Positions 2,416 to 17,805 of a DNA stretch of 24,590 nucleotides are shown piece by piece. Each line of letters starts with the position of its first letter. The first letter of the stretch is position 1. The stretch lies in IMG/VR virus record IMGVR_UViG_3300025769_000806, positions 1 to 24,590 of that record, one strand, 5' to 3'. The notes beneath the pieces were generated by a model. The model was not told the origin of the DNA and did not search any database. It was given only the letters and a program-made list of their open reading frames with translations. Made by a program: the position numbers and the translations under genes. This stretch comes from a virus.

Positions 2416-5400
2416 TTAGCGGTTTGTAAGTGGAAAGGTGGGTTGTTGTCCTCTACGGACATCGACTTTATTAATGGATTCCTTACGACGCAGTTCACGG
2501 ATCTCAGCTGCATTACTTAGATCACGTTCGGCTGCTTGTTGTGCACGACGCATCGCCATATCAATGTCGTAGTAGACCCTGGCGAAGTCGCGTTCGTTAA
2601 TCTGTCCACCAGTTTCCCTGGCTGTCTTAAGTGCTTCTCTGAATTTCTTAGCGTCAACACGCTTCATGATGGACCTAATGCGATCCTTGAAGATCCCTTG
2701 CTGACCCATAAGCTTGAATAGCTCAGAGCGTTCTTCAGGTGTATAGGAAATACCACCTTTAGACTTAGCAAATGTCGGCATTGAGTCATACTCAATATCG
2801 ATAAGGAATTGTTTCTCAGGACTAATACCCTCAGATACCTTCATAGGCATAGAAGCGTTCCACATACGTGTCCAGAAGGATTCGCTATAACCAACAGGCG
2901 TACCATCCATCCAGTCATATGCTTGTGGAAGACCAGCATCAGGGTTGATTACATCTACAAACTTGTTACGGTTGTGGAACAGTTGCCAAAGCTCTTGATC
3001 GACTTCACGTAGTTCAGGGGAGAGATACCTTCCAAGCTCATTACGCAGACCAGACAAAGGAAGCATGGAGCTAGTGAAGCTAGAACCCCAACGTGCAAGC
3101 GCTGCAGGGTTGCCTGCAAACAAGTCACCCATTGGTTCTAGACCAGCAACAAACGATTTATTTGTAAGGTTGGAACCAAGCACAAACATCATCTTGCCAA
3201 GCATGGCTTCACCATCGTTTTGATCGATAGTGTCCATGTTGTCCATAATGTCAGCAGTGATAGAGATGAAGTCAGCCATAGGACCAAGGAAGTCATAGCT
3301 GTACCAGTTACCATCCCAAGCACGGAAGCTGCGGGGAGCCCAGTTGTTCTTACGACGGAAGTTCTGACGCTCTTTGTCAAAGTGACCATTACCGTGAAGG
3401 TTGTCACCCATAAACATGAATGCAGCACCTAGCACTGCAGCAGTACCAATAGCTTTACGACCACGTACTTCAGCTTGGAGTGTCCTAAATGTCTGCTCAA
3501 TGCTGCCGTCAATGCGTAACCCACGTTCAGTCAGAATACGGATCATGTCATCACTAGAGAAGTTCTGACCAGGCATAGCAATCTTGTTGTAGTCCTTGAT
3601 AAAGACAGAAACAGGGCTGAACTTATTGACCATGCCAATCATGTTGTCCGCAGTACGCGGGAACATCAGGAAGGGCTTAAGGAAGGGTGCTCGGCTAATA
3701 AAGCCACTCAACGATCGAACGTTGTCTGTATCTAGGTTGAGAGCAATTTCACGGCTAGCGTAATCAACTGCTTTATCAGTGATCATGCCATTTTTATCAA
3801 ACATGCTCTCGTAAACGTTCTTCTCAGCTAAACGGATTTCATCAGCACTGAGCATTGCACGTTCACCACCACGCATCATCGCGTCATATACACGTCCTCT
3901 AGCTTCAACATTTGCTAAAGCAGCGCGTGTAAAGCCATCCAGAGCTGACATAGCGTTAGCTCCAAACCTCAACCAAGGATGGTTGGCAATGTCCTGCATG
4001 GTCTCAGCCATGTTGTAGAGGACCATCGGACCATCTTCACCACGCTTCACTGCTGATTGAGCGAACGAATGGAGAATGTCCATTTGAGCCTCGTTCTTAT
4101 ACACCAGCTCTTCACGCATGATGTAACCAACAGAGGTAGGATCCTGCGAGGCCTTACGGAACACATCAGTCATATGCTTCCATGAGCGCATGAATGTGTC
4201 ACCAACAGCCATGTATTGGTAGGCACCACGTCTCAAGGTCTTCATGTCTCGTGCCATAGCAGCGCCAGCAAAGACGCTGATGGGTTTCTGCAGCATCAAT
4301 ACAGTGTTACCAGCAAAAGCTTTGATAGGTGTAGAGAATGCAGATAGAACTGAGTTATAAATATTGGCCCATGCACCTTGAACAATCACACTAGGAATCT
4401 CAGGCATGCCGTCAATAAAGGCTTTGCTGACCGTTCCCAGGCTGTTGTTTACATAGTTGTTCAGCTTAGACAGGGTATCAATGTTGCCATCAGAGAATTC
4501 CCATGCCATCTGTAGAGGCACAAGGAACTCAGGACGTGACTTAGAAATCTCTCTCAGGGAGTTAGCAGAGTTCTTTGCACGGTTGATGATGTTCTTCAGT
4601 GCGTCATCAGTCTGCTCTTTAGCGTTTTGACCAGCCTTAGCAAGGATTTCAGGGTTATTGCTGAAGCGCTTCCAAGTGTTCAGGAAGTTCAGAGATGCAC
4701 CCCAGTTGTAAGCTGCCAGACCCTTTTCGACCATCAGGTATTCCATACGGTCAAGGATCATTTCTTGAGCCCTGCCGACTGCTTCAGTGCCTTCCATTAT
4801 GCGAGCACCTTCAGATAGGTCAGCTACTTCACCAGCAAAGGAAGTCTGCAAATAAGCTGATGCCTTCTGCATATCCATGTTGATGTACTCATCCATGTAG
4901 CCCTTAATGGCTTTCATAGCAGCGTTGTAACCAGCCTTACCTAGAAGCTTCTGTGCTTTTCCAGTCTTACCAAGGTCATTAATCATGTCCTTGTAGTCAT
5001 CCAGTACGGCACGGATCATGCCGGTATCCATTTGTGGATCGATGATGATTTCAGCTAGTCGAGTACCAGCAGCATCAATCTCTTCAAATGGAATCTTCCG
5101 ACCATCAGCAAGCTCAGCAGAGTACTTGCCGCCTTGACGCAAGCGATCAGTCACCATCTTGACGACTTGCCGCTTAGAGAGGTTGTTGATCTCTAGTCCG
5201 TACTTTTTAGCTGCTTCAGTAACGATGCTACCTAAACGACCATATCGTGTGTTGTAGTTCTTCTGCACACGTACAGCATCTACCGAAGCTCCAAGTACAC
5301 CATCAGGGTCAACAGAACGTGTACCCATCTCATCAATATCTACATCGTCAATAACTCCAGGCTTCCAGAGTTCATCTAGATCACCAGCCTTAGATGCAAT

Positions 5401-6417
5401 GTATTCGCCAGTTTCGTCAATAGCATCTTCTACACGCTTGACAGCATTAGTAAACACGTCTTCGGGAACCTCACCACGTTTGTGAAGTTCCTCAAGCTCT
5501 GTAAATAGCTTGTTTTTACCTTCACTTTCAGGGATAAAGTTAGTGATAAATCGCTTACCAATAGAGCCTTTAGCAAGCAGGGAAGCTGCTTCAACAAAGG
5601 CGGTAAACATACCAAGCCCTACACCTTCATAGATGGACTTGTTACGCTTAATGTCAGGGCTGTCACCATCAACGGTTGCGATGTTGTCAGAGATCCAGCC
5701 GAACTGAGCAGGCAAATTCTTCTTCAATGTGCCTGTCAGGTTATCGCCTTCACCAGAACCAGTGTTTGCATAGTCAACAAATACACCAGTACCTAGATCA
5801 ACGCCTGTTTTACCAATCAGTTGTACAAGCTTGCTTTGTCCAATACCCCAAGCAACTTTGGCATTAGCTGCCTTACCTAAGGCACCAGCAGCTCCACCAA
5901 GAACAAGGCTAGGGACAATAAAGGAAGCTAGTTCACGAGATGCTTCTGCGTATTCAGTTTCAAACTTCCTGTACTTAGGAAGGTTGACGTTAGCCAAAGC
6001 AGCTGTATCACGTACAAAGTCATAAGTACCAGCACCAGTGGCTTGTGTAAGCTCACCAACGGTTTTAAGTTCCTTGCTTTGAGCAATACCTTTGACAGCA
6101 CCTTTAACGGTTTCTTTATAGCGTTGTAGAGCTTTAGGCCCACTGGTACGTGTATCAGCAGGTTCTTCAGGCTCTTCCTCTGGTTCTACATCAACCTCTT
6201 CCTCTTGGCGTTTCTTAGCGCCAGAACGACCACCTGGGGAGTCAGGTGCAATATCAGCAGACTTAGGACGTGCAGCTTCGGCTGCAGCTCGTTCCTCAGA
6301 CTCCTGCTTATCACGAGCAATTACTTCTTTTTGTCGGGCTTGCTCTTCATCTAGACGCCTACGTTGTTCCTCGCCATCTAGCTCTTCACCCTCATACATC
6401 TCCTCATACATTGCCAT
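2416..6417 (-). CDS. internal virion protein, T7 gp16-like
   Basis: This very large protein (1333 aa; T7 gp16 is about 1318) holds the last position before the tail fibre, as gp16 does in T7. In T7 that protein is ejected into the cell and helps form the channel for DNA entry. The first ~100 residues are highly charged and probably disordered (EEQRRRLDEEQARQKE; an acidic run near 75-90). Hydrophobic, membrane-compatible segments occur near 160-180 (ELASFIVPSLVLGGAAGALG), near 270-285 (GLGMFTAFVEAASLLA) and late (GTAAVLGAAFMFMGDN). The rest looks mainly helical. I see no N-terminal lytic transglycosylase domain of the kind T7 gp16 carries; a muralytic domain lies in the preceding gene instead. 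Its ATG overlaps the upstream stop (TGATG). The assignment rests on position, size and composition. Confidence 0.82.
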   Translation of the reverse strand: MAMYEEMYEGEELDGEEQRRRLDEEQARQKEVIARDKQESEERAAAEAARPKSADIAPDSPGGRSGAKKRQEEEVDVEPEEEPEEPADTRTSGPKALQRYKETVKGAVKGIAQSKELKTVGELTQATGAGTYDFVRDTAALANVNLPKYRKFETEYAEASRELASFIVPSLVLGGAAGALGKAANAKVAWGIGQSKLVQLIGKTGVDLGTGVFVDYANTGSGEGDNLTGTLKKNLPAQFGWISDNIATVDGDSPDIKRNKSIYEGVGLGMFTAFVEAASLLAKGSIGKRFITNFIPESEGKNKLFTELEELHKRGEVPEDVFTNAVKRVEDAIDETGEYIASKAGDLDELWKPGVIDDVDIDEMGTRSVDPDGVLGASVDAVRVQKNYNTRYGRLGSIVTEAAKKYGLEINNLSKRQVVKMVTDRLRQGGKYSAELADGRKIPFEEIDAAGTRLAEIIIDPQMDTGMIRAVLDDYKDMINDLGKTGKAQKLLGKAGYNAAMKAIKGYMDEYINMDMQKASAYLQTSFAGEVADLSEGARIMEGTEAVGRAQEMILDRMEYLMVEKGLAAYNWGASLNFLNTWKRFSNNPEILAKAGQNAKEQTDDALKNIINRAKNSANSLREISKSRPEFLVPLQMAWEFSDGNIDTLSKLNNYVNNSLGTVSKAFIDGMPEIPSVIVQGAWANIYNSVLSAFSTPIKAFAGNTVLMLQKPISVFAGAAMARDMKTLRRGAYQYMAVGDTFMRSWKHMTDVFRKASQDPTSVGYIMREELVYKNEAQMDILHSFAQSAVKRGEDGPMVLYNMAETMQDIANHPWLRFGANAMSALDGFTRAALANVEARGRVYDAMMRGGERAMLSADEIRLAEKNVYESMFDKNGMITDKAVDYASREIALNLDTDNVRSLSGFISRAPFLKPFLMFPRTADNMIGMVNKFSPVSVFIKDYNKIAMPGQNFSSDDMIRILTERGLRIDGSIEQTFRTLQAEVRGRKAIGTAAVLGAAFMFMGDNLHGNGHFDKERQNFRRKNNWAPRSFRAWDGNWYSYDFLGPMADFISITADIMDNMDTIDQNDGEAMLGKMMFVLGSNLTNKSFVAGLEPMGDLFAGNPAALARWGSSFTSSMLPLSGLRNELGRYLSPELREVDQELWQLFHNRNKFVDVINPDAGLPQAYDWMDGTPVGYSESFWTRMWNASMPMKVSEGISPEKQFLIDIEYDSMPTFAKSKGGISYTPEERSELFKLMGQQGIFKDRIRSIMKRVDAKKFREALKTARETGGQINERDFARVYYDIDMAMRRAQQAAERDLSNAAEIRELRRKESINKVDVRRGQQPTFPLTNR

Positions 6418-13446: not shown

Positions 13447-14631
13447 TCAGCCGAATGCGGCAGGCTTGGTAGCGGTGCCAGCGAACAGTTCAACTGCAGC
13501 AGCAGGGTTCAGGTAGTCAGCACCCATAGCCAGACGGCCCAGGATCACGTCACCTTGATAGATCACGGAAACGTCACCGGAAGTCGTTTGGACTTGAGGA
13601 GCGATTGCCTCAACCACACCAGCGGCTTCACGTTGGAAGATCAGACCGCAGCTGTTGGTGAAGTTGGAGGTTGCACCGTAGTTGTTGTGCAGAGCGTCGT
13701 CGTCGTTTTGAACACCAGAGGTATCACCGTCAATATCGGTGTCCTTGTCGCGAGCGTTCTCCATATCAACATCAACGAAGCTACCGGTGTTACCAGGATC
13801 GGTGATGCCAGGGTTAGTAGCAGAACCGGTGCCGTAGGTAGTACCGTAATGACCGAAGAACGGAATGTTCATCGACTTGTAGATCTTGATGCCGGCGATA
13901 GAGATAACACCCTTACCGCTTTGCAGTGCAGAGCCTTGCTCATCACGGTTAACAAGACCGCCATCACCCACCTTCTGGATGAGTTCGTAGTACTGACGGG
14001 GGTTGAGGACAGCCACACGGCCATCGGTACTCACTCCCTTTTCGTCAAGAGCAGCGGCTGCATCGTAGAAAGCAGAGATCAGGTTGTCTGCGTTATAAGC
14101 ATCAGAAGCGTTGGTAGAAGAACCAACACGGATCTGTGTGCCACCCGGTTCAACATAGTTAGTCATGCTGATCGGGCTAGCCTTACGTGCACCTTTAGTG
14201 ATGGCACGGAAGATCAGACGGTCATACTTTTCTGCCAGTGCATAACCAATCTTGCGGCTGATTTCAGAACGCAAGTCGTAATGTGAGAGAACTTCGTCCA
14301 ATTCATAGACGAAAGCACTGGAGATCAAAAGGTCATCACAAGTGATGGTACGTTCTGCCACCGGGGGTGCATTCTCGTCATTACCGAGAATGGAACGGCC
14401 AGGGACATGGTACTCAGCTTCTGTACGGCCAGTGAAGATGAACTGCATACTCTTTCCGTTTTTAAGAGTACGCTTCATAACAAGATCACGAGCGATCGTG
14501 TTATTTTGGAAGCCCTTAAACATCTCACCAGAGAAGAGCTTCAGGAATAGCGCTCGGTTATCAGTATCCGAGCCATTAGCGCGGCCAATCCTATTAAGAC
14601 TAGAATTGTTGCCAGTAGACTGTTGAGCCAT
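13447..14631 (-). CDS. major capsid protein, T7 gp10-like
   Basis: This 394-aa protein (T7 gp10A is 345 aa) has the HK97-like fold known for this family. Support comes from the N-terminal segment (ALFLKLFSGEMFKGFQ), from FIFTGRTEAEYHVPGRSILG, from the DDLLISSAFVYELDE stretch, from GRVAVLNPRQYYELIQK, and from the C-terminal GDVILGRLAMGADYLNPA. A Gly/Asp/Asn-rich acidic stretch near 255-320 (DKDTDIDGDTSGVQNDDD) is probably a surface loop that explains the extra length. I see no equivalent of T7's gp10B frameshift extension: the terminator follows almost at once. The gene sits alone between a structured 155-bp leader and the terminator, which fits strong separate expression. Its ATG lacks an obvious Shine-Dalgarno. 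Confidence 0.95.
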   Translation of the reverse strand: MAQQSTGNNSSLNRIGRANGSDTDNRALFLKLFSGEMFKGFQNNTIARDLVMKRTLKNGKSMQFIFTGRTEAEYHVPGRSILGNDENAPPVAERTITCDDLLISSAFVYELDEVLSHYDLRSEISRKIGYALAEKYDRLIFRAITKGARKASPISMTNYVEPGGTQIRVGSSTNASDAYNADNLISAFYDAAAALDEKGVSTDGRVAVLNPRQYYELIQKVGDGGLVNRDEQGSALQSGKGVISIAGIKIYKSMNIPFFGHYGTTYGTGSATNPGITDPGNTGSFVDVDMENARDKDTDIDGDTSGVQNDDDALHNNYGATSNFTNSCGLIFQREAAGVVEAIAPQVQTTSGDVSVIYQGDVILGRLAMGADYLNPAAAVELFAGTATKPAAFG

Positions 14632-14658
14632 TATTAGTAGAGAGAATAACTTTTACTC

Positions 14659-14672
14659 TCTGAACGTTCAGA
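14659..14672. repeat. 14-bp perfect palindrome in the capsid leader
   Basis: TCTGAACGTTCAGA equals its own reverse complement. It lies about 27 nt before the capsid start and borders an A-run on its minus-strand upstream side. It could bind a dimeric protein or form a short stem with an ACGT loop. Length and symmetry are observed; function is unknown. Confidence 0.7.
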
Positions 14673-14704
14673 ATTTTTTTAACCAATTTTTGTGGTCTAT
14701 CCCA

Positions 14705-14716
14705 CCGTCTAGACGG
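14705..14716. repeat. 12-bp perfect palindrome in the capsid leader
   Basis: CCGTCTAGACGG is self-complementary and lies in the middle of the non-coding leader. It is unrelated in sequence to the 14-bp palindrome 32 bp away. Confidence 0.65.
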
Positions 14717-14751
14717 CAAAGGGTATCCGCGTACGGGCCAATGCCAATGAA

Positions 14752-14780
14752 GGGAGAGTCCGACTCTGAGGTGCTCTCCC
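14752..14780 (-). other. possible RNA hairpin at the start of the capsid leader
   Basis: A 7-bp stem (GGGAGAG with CTCTCCC) encloses a 15-nt loop, beginning about 6 nt after the stop of the upstream 34-aa gene. The loop contributes to a competing AGAGT/ACTCT hairpin, so two exclusive folds are possible. No T-run follows, so it is not a standard terminator. Confidence 0.5.
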
Positions 14781-14786
14781 AACTAT

Positions 14787-14891
14787 TTACTTTTTCTCTT
14801 CTTTCTTAGGTTCCTTTTTCTCAGGGGTAGGTTGATAGCGCACAGGGTACGCTTGACCTAAACCTCCATTAGGACCAGATTGTTGAGCCAT
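14787..14891 (-). CDS. small hypothetical protein, 34 aa
   Basis: This short frame runs MAQQSGPNGGLGQAYPVRYQ and then a Pro/Lys/Glu-rich charged tail (PTPEKKEPKKEEKK). Its ATG overlaps the stop of the preceding small gene (TAATG), the same coupling used by the certain genes here, which is the main support. It shares its first five residues (MAQQS), and the DNA TAATGGCTCAACA around its start, with the major capsid gene downstream. It has no membrane segment and no recognised family. It is probably a real, highly expressed minor protein of unknown role. Confidence 0.55.
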   Translation of the reverse strand: MAQQSGPNGGLGQAYPVRYQPTPEKKEPKKEEKK

Positions 14892-14995
14892 TACTTTTGG
14901 GTTTTCAAATAGGTAACGCCGCGATACTTCAGCTTGGCTGCTTTGACAGCAGCGGCTTGCTCTTTAACGCGAGCTTGCAGTTCAACATTAGGCAT
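14891..14995 (-). CDS. small protein with a YRGVxY motif, 34 aa
   Basis: The protein has an Ala/Lys/Gln-rich N-terminal helix (MPNVELQARVKEQAAAVKA) followed by KLKYRGVTYLKTQK. The LKYRGVTY end resembles the short LxYRGxxY motif of the cyanobacterial DUF4278 family, and I recall similar small proteins in marine cyanophages. A GGAG about 6 nt before the ATG supports this start over an in-frame ATG four codons upstream. The stop overlaps the next gene's start. Function is unknown. Confidence 0.65.
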   Translation of the reverse strand: MPNVELQARVKEQAAAVKAAKLKYRGVTYLKTQK

Positions 14996-15013
14996 GATGA
15001 TCTCCATGAAGTA

Positions 15014-15037
15014 TCACACCCCCGTTCCATGGTGTGA
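15014..15037 (-). other. possible RNA hairpin between two small genes
   Basis: A 7-bp perfect stem (TCACACC with GGTGTGA) and 10-nt loop sit directly after the stop of the 60-aa gene and about 20 nt before the next start. No T tract follows. It may protect or separate messages, or be incidental. Confidence 0.4.
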
Positions 15038-15040
15038 GTG

Positions 15041-15223
15041 TTATGCGTCCAGCATGAAAGTTTCTTCTAGAAGTACACGTTGCAGGCTATCTCTCAAGTA
15101 CGCATAGTATTGCTGCTCCACAGGATCACCACCTGGCCATTGGTCAAGTGCAAAGCTCACTGCTTTGTGCATCATGCGGAGAGAGGTGGCTGTAAATTGT
15201 AATTCGTAGATGTTGTCTTCCAT
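15041..15223 (-). CDS. conserved-type small hypothetical protein, 60 aa
   Basis: This acidic, helical protein begins MEDNIYELQFTATSLRMMHK, continues with an ALDQWPGGDPVEQQYYAYL segment and ends LLEETFMLDA. The pattern of aromatic and Leu residues suggests a small two- or three-helix bundle. There is no signal peptide or membrane segment. It lies between the outer-membrane-type protein gene and the YRGVxY gene, with short spacers on both sides. I have a weak impression of similar proteins in cyanophages but cannot name a family. Confidence 0.65.
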   Translation of the reverse strand: MEDNIYELQFTATSLRMMHKAVSFALDQWPGGDPVEQQYYAYLRDSLQRVLLEETFMLDA

Positions 15224-15243
15224 ATTGGATGAACGTACGTTAC

Positions 15244-15603
15244 TTAGAAGGAATATTTAACGCCAGCTTTGGTGCCATAGGAGTTCTGATCTTCTTCAAA
15301 ACTAGCAGCCAATTCGGCATACACTTTGAGGTGCTTGTTTGCTTTGACACTGAAGCCAACCTTACCGGCAGGGACAGTCTCAGACACACCATTATCAGGA
15401 GTGGTCATGCTGGGACCACCTTCAATGAAGTAATCAAGAGTACCGACTTCACCTTCATAACCAACGAAGAAGTCAGTAGCAGTTTTAGAGTAGTCAGTAC
15501 CTGCAAACTTAGAAGAAGTTTCGACGTTCACGTAAGGACCGGCGATAGCAGGCACAGCAAAAGAGGACACCGCAAGGGTGGTAAGTGCGATTTTGTTAAA
15601 CAT
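15244..15603 (-). CDS. secreted porin-like outer membrane beta-barrel protein
   Basis: This 119-aa protein has a Sec signal peptide: MFNKIALTTLAVSSFAVPAIA, with a charged residue, a hydrophobic core and an AIA-G cleavage site after residue 21. The mature ~98 residues alternate polar and hydrophobic positions (GPYVNVETSS, TDFFVGYEG, LDYFIEGGP, HLKVYAELAASF) and end in GVKYSF. The C-terminal Phe preceded by alternating residues is the usual signal for BAM-dependent insertion into the outer membrane. I start it at the second Met of a longer open frame because the upstream part (KKSKAKRKRN) is low-complexity and would spoil the signal, and because this ATG sits 4 nt after the preceding stop. Barrels this small are short for a true pore. 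Possible roles are superinfection exclusion, envelope change during infection or lysis help; none is shown. Confidence 0.75.
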   Translation of the reverse strand: MFNKIALTTLAVSSFAVPAIAGPYVNVETSSKFAGTDYSKTATDFFVGYEGEVGTLDYFIEGGPSMTTPDNGVSETVPAGKVGFSVKANKHLKVYAELAASFEEDQNSYGTKAGVKYSF

Positions 15604-15607
15604 AGTT

Positions 15608-15793
15608 TTAAGAGATTTTGAGTTTAGATTTCTTTTTCTTTTTGCCTTCGACTTTTTTAAAGAGCTCGACAGCATTTACACTCTTTCCATATTTGGAATC
15701 TTCTTTATCAGCTCGTTTACGAGCGTCTTTATAGGAATCATAAAGACCAAAGTTTTCCCTCGTAATGGGATTATAAACTCTATATGTAGGCAT
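15608..15793 (-). CDS. small basic hypothetical protein, 61 aa
   Basis: It begins MPTYRVYNPITRENFGLYDS, continues YKDARKRADKEDSKYGKS and ends in a Lys-rich tail (KKVEGKKKKKSKLKIS). The first part reads like a compact domain and the tail like a nucleic-acid- or capsid-binding extension. The start overlaps the previous stop (TAATG). It belongs to a run of very basic small proteins after psbA, which could be virion-packaged or DNA-binding. No family is recognised with certainty. Confidence 0.7.
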   Translation of the reverse strand: MPTYRVYNPITRENFGLYDSYKDARKRADKEDSKYGKSVNAVELFKKVEGKKKKKSKLKIS

Positions 15794-15861
15794 TATTTTT
15801 TTGGTCCTTTCTTAGGCGGCCGACCTTTTTGAGTACCGTATGTACCTTTACCTTTAGGCAT
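15793..15861 (-). CDS. tiny basic protein, 22 aa
   Basis: The sequence [20 protein letters not shown] followed by KK is joined to both neighbours by TAATG stop/start overlaps. I recall near-identical MPxGKGTYGxxxGRPPKK peptides in other marine cyanophages, which supports a real gene. It is strongly basic with a GRPPKK end reminiscent of AT-hook-like DNA-contacting peptides; that function is speculation. Confidence 0.65.
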   Translation of the reverse strand: MPKGKGTYGTQKGRPPKKGPKK

Positions 15862-16010
15862 TACTTTTTCTTTGCAGTTTTTGCAGAGCGTTTAAAGTTG
15901 GCAGCCGTAGGAGCACCCTTGCTCCCTGGCTTCCTCATAGATTCACCACTGCCTTTTGCGATACGTTTGCGCTTGGCGTGGATGTTTGCATATAGTCCTT
16001 GTTTAGCCAT
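15861..16010 (-). CDS. small basic protein, DUF6321-like, 49 aa
   Basis: The sequence begins [20 protein letters not shown], continues [19 protein letters not shown] and ends [10 protein letters not shown]. It matches a small protein I recall as widespread in marine phages and annotated DUF6321, with the conserved [13 protein letters not shown] and [11 protein letters not shown] segments. It has about 15 Lys/Arg and almost no acidic residues, so nucleic-acid binding or packaging in the head is plausible but unproven. Its ATG lies inside the end of psbA (8-nt overlap, ATGGCTAA), so it is probably translated from the psbA message. Confidence 0.8.
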
Positions 16011-17061
16011 ATACTTTTTGTTCTGTAGTAGCTAGATCAAGTGGAAAGTTATGTGCATTCCTTTCGTGCATGACTTCCATCCCCAACCCTTGACGGTTGA
16101 GGATGTCAGCCCAGGTGTTAATTACTTTTCCTTGTGAGTCCTGAATGGATTGGTTGAAGTTAAAACCATTAAGGTTAAATGCCATGGTGCTTACACCAAG
16201 TGCAGTGAACCAGATACCCACAACAGGCCAAGCAGCCAGGAAGAAGTGAAGGCTACGTGAATTATTAAAAGACGCATATTGAAAGATCAAACGTCCGAAG
16301 TAACCATGTGCGGCTACGATGTTGTACGTCTCTTCTTCTTGGCCAAACTTATAACCTTTGTTATGAGATTCAGCTTCAGTAGTTTCACGAACCAGCGAAG
16401 ACGTGACCAGACTTCCGTGCATCGCAGAAAAAAGAGAGCCACCAAATACACCAGCCACACCAAGCATGTGGAATGGGTGCATAAGAATGTTGTGCTCCGC
16501 TTGGAAGACGAGCATGTAGTTGAAGGTACCGGAGATACCCAGTGGCATGCCATCGCTGAATGATCCTTGTCCAAATGGATATACAAGGAACACGGCGGTA
16601 GCAGCCGCAACCGGTGCAGAATATGCGACACAAATCCACGGCCTCATTCCGAGTCGATAACTAAGTTCCCATTCACGTCCCATGTAAGCGAAGACACCGA
16701 TGAGAAAGTGGAATACAACGAGTTGATATGGCCCTCCGTTGTAGAGCCATTCGTCAAGTCCTGCTGATTCCCAGATGGGATAGAAATGTAGTCCGATTGC
16801 GTTGGAGCTGGGTACGACTGCTCCGGAGATGATGTTGTTTCCATAGAGTAGAGACCCAGACACGGGTTCACGGATGCCGTCAATGTCAACCGGCGGAGCG
16901 GCGATGAAGGCGATGATGAATGCGGTTGTAGCTGCCAGTAGACAAGGAATCATGAGGACACCGAAGTGTCCTACATAAAGCCGGTTCTCAGTGCTGCTAA
17001 CCCACTCAACATATTTGTCCCAAGGATTCTTGGAACGTTGTAGTGCGATAGTAGCTGCCAT
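16003..17061 (-). CDS. psbA: photosystem II reaction centre protein D1
   Basis: D1 is the fast-turnover core subunit of photosystem II in the thylakoid membrane. Phage copies replace host D1 during infection so that electron flow, and thus energy for phage growth, continues. The frame is intact (352 aa, no intron) and every functional residue falls at standard numbering: Tyr161 (YZ), Asp170, His190, His198, His215, His252, Ser264, His272, His332, Glu333, His337, Asp342 and Ala344, the mature C-terminus. Glu130 (GREWELSY), with surrounding GVFAYMG and [10 protein letters not shown], marks the high-light D1:2 type. The extension after Ala344 is only 8 residues (TTEQKVYG). His occupies position 32, where D1 usually has Trp. 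It starts 6 nt after the scaffold gene, without a clear Shine-Dalgarno, so it is expressed among the late genes. Confidence 0.99.
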
Positions 17062-17067
17062 TAAAAA

Positions 17068-17805
17068 TTAAAATTGAAGTTCAGAACGATCCAGTTTTGA
17101 AATTACATCCTGCCGGTACGCTGGATCGGAGTCGTACCGGGGATCATTCATTGCTGCAATTAGTTCAGCTTGACTTCGGAAGGTTGCTTCTGCTGCTGCA
17201 GGCTTACCTTGTAAAAGATTTCCGTCTTGTCCCATAGCATCTGTGTATCGGTAATTCAGTGACTGAAGTGCGAGGTTGATTTGATCCAGGTTCCCGCTTT
17301 CAATGATTTGATCGTATGCATTAATCTCTGCTTCACTAAAGTTTTCTTTAGCCCAGCCAACAATCTCTGAATACTTGTCTTCACCACCGACACTTTTATA
17401 AACGGTATCGATTTCACCTTGTGACAAGTCACGTCCGCCAGGTGGGTTAGCACCTTGCATTGCTTTGAACACGTCAACTCCACTCATCTCTGAGAGTTGC
17501 TTACTTAATTCTTCTGAGAGTTCTCCGCTTTCGTTGATCGCTCGGTAGGCTTCATCCAACCAAGATCCTTCAGCAGTTTCTTCAGACTGCTCTTGCACAT
17601 CTTCTTTATCGTTGCTTCCGAGTTTCTTTTGTAGCTCTAGGTAAGCTTCCTCCAGTTGTTCTGTGGTCTCATACTTACCAGCCAGCTTTTGTGCATGTGC
17701 CTCTTCAATCTCTTCACCAATCCGCAGAGAGTCTGCCTCTTCAGCGGCTAGTGATTCCATTACTTCAGCATCTACACTATTATCATGAGATAAAAGTTCT
17801 GCCAT
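17068..17805 (-). CDS. capsid assembly scaffolding protein, T7 gp9-like
   Basis: This 245-aa protein (T7 gp9 is 307 aa) guides procapsid assembly and is absent from mature virions. It is very acidic in the first half (ESLAAEEADSLRIGEEIEEA) and helical. The C-terminal segment FRSQAELIAAMNDPRYDSDP followed by AYRQDVISKLDRS is the clearest family mark. It lies between portal and capsid, as in T7, except that psbA and the small genes are inserted before the capsid gene. The start overlaps the portal stop (TAATG). Confidence 0.92.
   Translation of the reverse strand: MAELLSHDNSVDAEVMESLAAEEADSLRIGEEIEEAHAQKLAGKYETTEQLEEAYLELQKKLGSNDKEDVQEQSEETAEGSWLDEAYRAINESGELSEELSKQLSEMSGVDVFKAMQGANPPGGRDLSQGEIDTVYKSVGGEDKYSEIVGWAKENFSEAEINAYDQIIESGNLDQINLALQSLNYRYTDAMGQDGNLLQGKPAAAEATFRSQAELIAAMNDPRYDSDPAYRQDVISKLDRSELQF

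Follow-up and report, generated by a model that had tools for sequence, protein, structure and literature searches.

Beta-barrel proteins of marine cyanophages are catalogued in Pfam as PF24653, with the full name 'Cyanophage outer membrane protein like beta barrel domain' (Phage_OMP), and as PHROG 417. Members are common in marine cyanophages, yet they are filed as hypothetical protein, gp222, DUF680 (PhCOG173) or autotransporter barrel, and the DUF680 label was not backed by any Pfam match in this analysis. An over-representation of DUF680 together with PstS is reported for the BATS and MED datasets, an enrichment in low-phosphate ocean (PMC3686209), and a link between PhCOG173 and phosphorus is credited to Kelly et al. 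2013, as cited in PMC6224464. In phage S-TIM4, ORF224 gathered 13 mutations, many of them disabling, at a cumulative frequency of ~100% and only in populations evolved on Synechococcus WH8102 (PMC6224464); we read this inactivation on one host as a cost of the protein. Virion proteomes, to which the first-pass annotation had looked for a check, give conflicting reports on relatives. By mass spectrometry, ORF224 was classed as not associated with particles (PMC6224464), whereas S-SZBM1_90 was detected by mass spectrometry, with 2 peptides, in CsCl-purified particles (PMC9146016). Both proteins were verified here as PF24653 members.

The gene studied here lies in a stretch of viral DNA of 24,590 nt, analysed as a whole and referred to below as the window. 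It is a minus-strand ORF of 119 aa with its ATG at 15603 and its stop codon ending at 15244 (Table 1); the same frame also holds a 143-aa ORF that starts upstream of the signal peptide. The 119-aa protein matched PF24653 at 133.5 bits (curated cut-off 27), residues 1–119 aligning with positions 1–122 of the 122-position profile, signal peptide and C-terminal Phe included. In addition, residues 67–119 matched the end of the NCBIfam autotransporter barrel profile TIGR01414 (379–432 of 432) at 18.4 bits against a cut-off of 16. Comparison with close relatives showed dN far below dS (e.g., 0.045/0.374 and 0.157/1.07), and purifying selection directly supports a real, conserved gene. It comes from the same phage group as the family and differs from it in nothing important: it is an ordinary A-type member of an already catalogued, uncharacterised cyanophage family.

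Table 1. Coordinates of the PF24653 gene, its parts and its neighbours in the window.
Feature	Position	Strand	Evidence
Phage_OMP (PF24653) gene, 119 aa, A-type subfamily	15244..15603	-	Pfam PF24653 E 5.8e-39 over 1-119; PHROG 417 E 2.2e-37; purifying selection
Sec signal peptide, residues 1-21, MFNKIALTTLAVSSFAVPAIA, AxA cleavage site	15541..15603	-	sequence; AxA in 251/261 homologues; hydrophobic core and N-region K/R in 60/60 representatives
Mature domain, residues 22-119, six predicted antiparallel beta strands (22-34, 37-53, 56-69, 75-87, 92-102, 107-117)	15247..15540	-	AlphaFold2 model; structural matches
C-terminal beta-signal KAGVKYSF (BAM recognition)	15247..15270	-	sequence; pattern kept in 57/60 representatives
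psbA (photosystem II D1), upstream neighbour	16003..17061	-	Pfam Photo_RC E 3.3e-90; PHROG 182
Major capsid protein, downstream neighbour	13447..14631	-	Pfam Gp10A-like E 1.3e-69
Capsid assembly (scaffold) protein	17068..17805	-	Pfam Phage_T7_Capsid; PHROG 1052

The backbone of the window is that of a T7-like cyanophage, with portal, scaffold, psbA, PF24653, major capsid, tail tube and nozzle genes following one another on one strand. The closest phages were S-RIP2 and KBS-P-1A, at ~73% identity over part of the window. The first-pass annotation had placed the gene beside psbA in the late region, and psbA and the major capsid gene do flank it, on the minus strand. Across 78 podovirus loci, the PF24653 gene occupies the interval bounded by the scaffold gene and the capsid gene, on one side of psbA or the other. 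One podovirus-like contig (L347, 5751–8207) has it between scaffold and capsid in a stretch with no psbA match. Since its place relative to psbA varies in podoviruses, and psbA is unmatched in that contig, the functional clue that the first-pass annotation had drawn from this adjacency is unspecific; psbA is a neighbour within a shared insertion interval and no specific partner of the gene. Several very small minus-strand ORFs flank the PF24653 gene, at 14632–15243 and 15608–16002. One of these, a 61-aa ORF (15793–15608), ends 4 bases ahead of the ATG, a spacing that suggests coupled translation of the two. Sigma-70-like promoters near the gene were no more frequent than in shuffles.

By the character of its sequence, the window protein carries a Sec signal peptide with an AxA site, and cleavage is predicted after it, leaving a chain that runs from GPYVNVE... 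to ...GTKAGVKYSF. The signal-peptide sequence changes fast among homologues, while the basic N-region and hydrophobic core are always kept and the AxA nearly always (Table 1). The C-terminal Phe is present in 258 of 261 homologues and the residue at −3 is aromatic in 260 of 261; the beta-signal pattern recognised by BAM, zeta-x-G-x-x-h-x-F, is fitted by nearly all representatives. Both features had been proposed in the first-pass annotation and are borne out across the family. The window has 208 ORFs that start with Met and encode 60 aa or more, and this is the only one of them that combines a signal-peptide-like N-terminus with a C-terminal beta-signal. Residues alternate along the predicted strands (amphipathic pattern) more than in shuffled sequences, with p = 0.014 in the window protein and a mean z of 2.2 across the family. 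An outer-membrane location of the mature protein is considered very probable.

A tblastn search found the family in 475 phage records, nearly all of Synechococcus and Prochlorococcus phages, podoviruses and myoviruses alike; one record bears a Yersinia phage name. No copy was found in S-PM2, Syn5 or P-SSP7. The statement in the first-pass annotation that other cyanophages have relatives with no established function was correct. Two subfamilies are distinguished. Subfamily A (PYVNVE...) includes the window copy, Syn9 gp222 and S-TIM4 ORF224; subfamily B (PYVESK...), apart from one divergent row, groups as one clade on a long branch. The lumen-facing sites 28, 81, 97 and 112 are E, K, E and K in A and K, E, K and E in B, almost without exception, an exact polarity swap that traces to one branch. 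We do not claim the swap as repeated compensatory evolution, the B clade having a single origin. Single-unit matches in 'bacterial' metagenome-assembled genomes (MAGs) were largely cyanophage contigs carrying psbA, capsid, scaffold, portal, pstS or hli-type genes. Such loci (L321–L328), with a PF24653 gene and cyanophage genes, occur in MAGs labelled Lewinella, Dehalococcoidia, Actinomycetota, Euryarchaeota and others and are probably misbinned cyanophage contigs.

An AlphaFold2 model of the single chain, built from 60 homologues, gave six antiparallel strands, with pLDDT of at least 90 at 89 of 119 residues, including most of the mature ones. Foldseek against the PDB returned no match below E 0.001, and many outer-membrane barrels were listed at high probability. 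In the VIA comparison, outer-membrane barrels occupied the top rows throughout (best Z 9.7). Avidin-type barrels, at Z about 7 in the same list, ranked below them and were set aside on account of the signal peptide and beta-signal. Sequence searches for direct PDB relatives yielded chance matches only with phmmer and weak barrel-like matches, at E 0.03 and above, with a profile. The model of a B-type protein likewise shows these six strands, and contiguous parts of 12-stranded barrels superpose on it (KdgM, 2.4 Å over 90 residues; BrkA, 2.1 Å over 101; NalP and EspP, each 2.6 Å over 104). The first-pass annotation had predicted a small outer-membrane beta-barrel. Export and barrel type hold, on PF24653, TIGR01414, the AlphaFold2 model, the structural matches and the beta-signal; a complete barrel probably does not, as a chain of six strands probably amounts to half of one.

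Cyanobacterial genomes hold relatives of a different build. In genomes of the Synechococcus/Prochlorococcus family, PF24653 mostly matched the mature part of longer proteins. Several of these are ~260 aa long and contain two tandem PF24653 units (two Pfam stretches, 50.6 bits), whose mutual identity was 35% (E 2e-16) in one and 32% in the other of two proteins compared. Two-unit proteins, without an NCBIfam name, were noted in five Synechococcus loci (L341 at 5067–5861, L343, L342, L339 and L340). Each half aligns with the phage protein and keeps E28, (L/V)GY, G63, K81, E97, K112 and G114, and the aromatic beta-signal stands at the very end, as in the phage protein; the phage protein is a single unit, whereas the host protein has both units in one chain. 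At both loci examined, the two-unit gene follows a His-rich outer-membrane-type gene and lies beside a Fur-family regulator gene; in one of the two, znuA, znuB and znuC are also adjacent (zur/znu zinc-uptake cluster). In the tree, the host units form their own clade on long branches, distant from the phage proteins. To judge from these alignments and the tree, phage and host units look like descendants of a common ancestor, and recent host-to-phage transfer of a metabolic gene is not supported, given the separate host clade. A broken copy with in-frame stops (L344, G129:C1:132523–132861) was seen in a 2.4-Mb Synechococcus-type contig and is possibly a cyanophage relic.

One chain supplies six predicted strands, whereas a barrel closing in one chain takes at least eight, the smallest number known to us in natural outer-membrane barrels. 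A designed 10-stranded barrel superposes its first six strands on the A-type model at 1.5 Å over 87 residues, compared with about 3.4–4.5 Å for closed eight-stranded barrels. One chain should not close on itself, because the curvature of its sheet is that of a 10- to 12-stranded barrel, and in the model the phage unit looks like an open half-barrel in need of a partner chain. As the models are single-chain predictions, the argument on closure and pairing uses this curvature together with the host two-unit protein, the main support for pairing, whose two six-stranded units make twelve strands. On these models a paired half-barrel is the arrangement we somewhat favour. No natural two-unit fusion occurred among the phage ORFs collected, and mutual information applied to the closure question drew on too few effective sequences (~50), with a signal dominated by the A/B split.

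The strongest competitor is a complete, closed six-stranded monomer, which would sit in the outer membrane as a tiny anchor or plug that lacks a pore. Each chain does carry six strands and is equipped with a signal peptide and a beta-signal, and salt bridges inside the barrel could arise from the conserved inward charges that alternate on strands 1, 4, 5 and 6 (E28/K81/E97/K112, swapped in B). Set against the close fit to part of a wider barrel, the poorer fit to closed eight-stranded ones, the two units of the host chain and the strand number of natural barrels, a closed monomer appears unlikely.

The linkage of B-type paralogues to pstS is directly supported. In IMG/VR loci, pstS lies directly downstream in 52 of 60 A-B tandem pairs and no more than 2.5 kb away from 80 of 94 B copies, counts that are biased by the use of pstS-adjacent queries; with podovirus P-SSP2 as an independent query, 14 of 20 B copies found were also near pstS. 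The A-B-pstS arrangement recurs in the isolates P-SSM2 and S-SCSM1. A four-gene cassette, DUF680-DUF680-pstS-phoA, was noted in the isolate cyanomyovirus S-SM2 (L351, 5441–8706). A Pho-box-like tandem site (at most 1 mismatch) precedes 42% of B genes versus ~1% in shuffles, a figure uncorrected for relatedness among the genes; none was found upstream of A genes. For phages, a published warning holds that Pho-box predictions should not be relied on unless binding has been measured (PMC10976474). The conserved inward sites, whose facing is inferred from the model, mix E, K, D and Q and form no obvious phosphate-selective basic ladder.

Nutrient import is indicated by the place of B in the A-B-pstS cassette with a Pho-box-like site and by the host gene in a zur/znu cluster. 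Nutrient permeability, one of the functions suggested in the first-pass annotation, gains support from the A-B-pstS(-phoA) cassettes, the sites upstream of B, the environmental enrichment (PMC3686209) and the host zinc-cluster homologue, and is the best of those proposed. In the window, the best tandem Pho-box match has 4 mismatches, and the gene has neither a Pho box nor a pstS neighbour, psbA and the capsid gene standing there instead. An uptake role for this A-type copy is therefore carried over from its paralogues, and by that analogy it may apply, though we hold it tentatively.

The explanation that we consider best, with a probability of roughly 0.45, is an exported six-stranded unit that pairs and serves as an extra outer-membrane nutrient port in the infected cell. 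During infection, Sec would export the protein and the signal peptide would be removed between AIA and GP; host BAM would then insert it by means of the C-terminal KAGVKYSF. The active form would most likely consist of two chains giving a 12-stranded barrel, as the host two-unit version would make in one chain. Such a barrel would be an additional entry port through which more nutrients reach the periplasm during infection. Other cyanophages have a B-type partner linked to the phosphate-binding PstS and a Pho-box-like site; the solo A-type copy of the podovirus studied here, which lies in the capsid-gene region, would act without phosphate control. A real conserved gene, its signal peptide, its family membership, the predicted six-strand fold of outer-membrane type and the pstS linkage of B have direct support; that the chains pair, that they make a pore and what the solo copy does are the parts that we infer. 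A fuller version, in which a split pore of two six-stranded chains (A+A, or A+B with swapped lumen charges) shares its ancestry with the host two-unit family and feeds phosphate or other nutrients to the infected cell, is more speculative.

Other roles explain less. A change of the infected-cell surface that keeps further phages from adsorbing, by receptor masking or superinfection exclusion, would suit the predicted outer-membrane location and a family spanning cyanopodoviruses and cyanomyoviruses that share hosts. However, no genomic link to adsorption or exclusion genes was seen, against a clear link to pstS and phoA, and the conserved parts are the barrel strands and not the loops; with no positive evidence, this proposal of the first-pass annotation is less probable than the closed monomer. 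A virion component, such as a particle-associated membrane-binding protein, would agree with the peptides of S-SZBM1_90 (PMC9146016) and with the place of the podovirus gene in the capsid region. It is at odds with ORF224 (PMC6224464) and with a Sec signal, which is not normal on virion proteins, and outer-membrane vesicles may co-purify with particles; we regard it as improbable. Late outer-membrane destabilisation assisting lysis, also raised in the first-pass annotation, has no positive evidence and is no more probable: capsid-region placement suggests late expression in podoviruses and expression is costly on one host (PMC6224464), but myovirus paralogues sit in Pho-linked uptake cassettes and annotated loci show no link to holin, endolysin or spanin genes, except a tail lysozyme near the S-SCSM1 pair.

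The products of cyanophage pstS and phoA act in the periplasm, and with an outer-membrane partner such as the paired port, phage remodelling would extend to the first barrier that scarce phosphate meets. The loss of function on one host (PMC6224464) offers a ready genetic handle. The family itself is catalogued; the proposed half-barrel and the host two-unit relatives were not found described in the open-access papers covered.

Two six-stranded chains in one barrel would, if true, extend the known assembly modes of outer-membrane barrels and bear on barrel evolution by duplication of shorter units; we know of no barrel made in this way. There is a likeness to 12-stranded barrels, namely the autotransporter beta domains of BrkA, NalP and EspP and the KdgM-type porins, in which six contiguous strands superpose on the phage model at 2.1–2.8 Å, and the TIGR01414 match at the C-terminal end adds a likeness in sequence to autotransporter barrels. 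Unlike the phage protein, these barrels have all twelve strands in a single chain, and the phage protein is without a passenger domain or known substrate. The host two-unit protein likewise keeps both units in one chain, in a zinc-uptake cluster and far off in the tree. TolC, the YadA anchor and MspA build one barrel from several short chains, and the proposed phage barrel would have this principle in common with them, although each chain contributes 2 or 4 strands there and would contribute six here.
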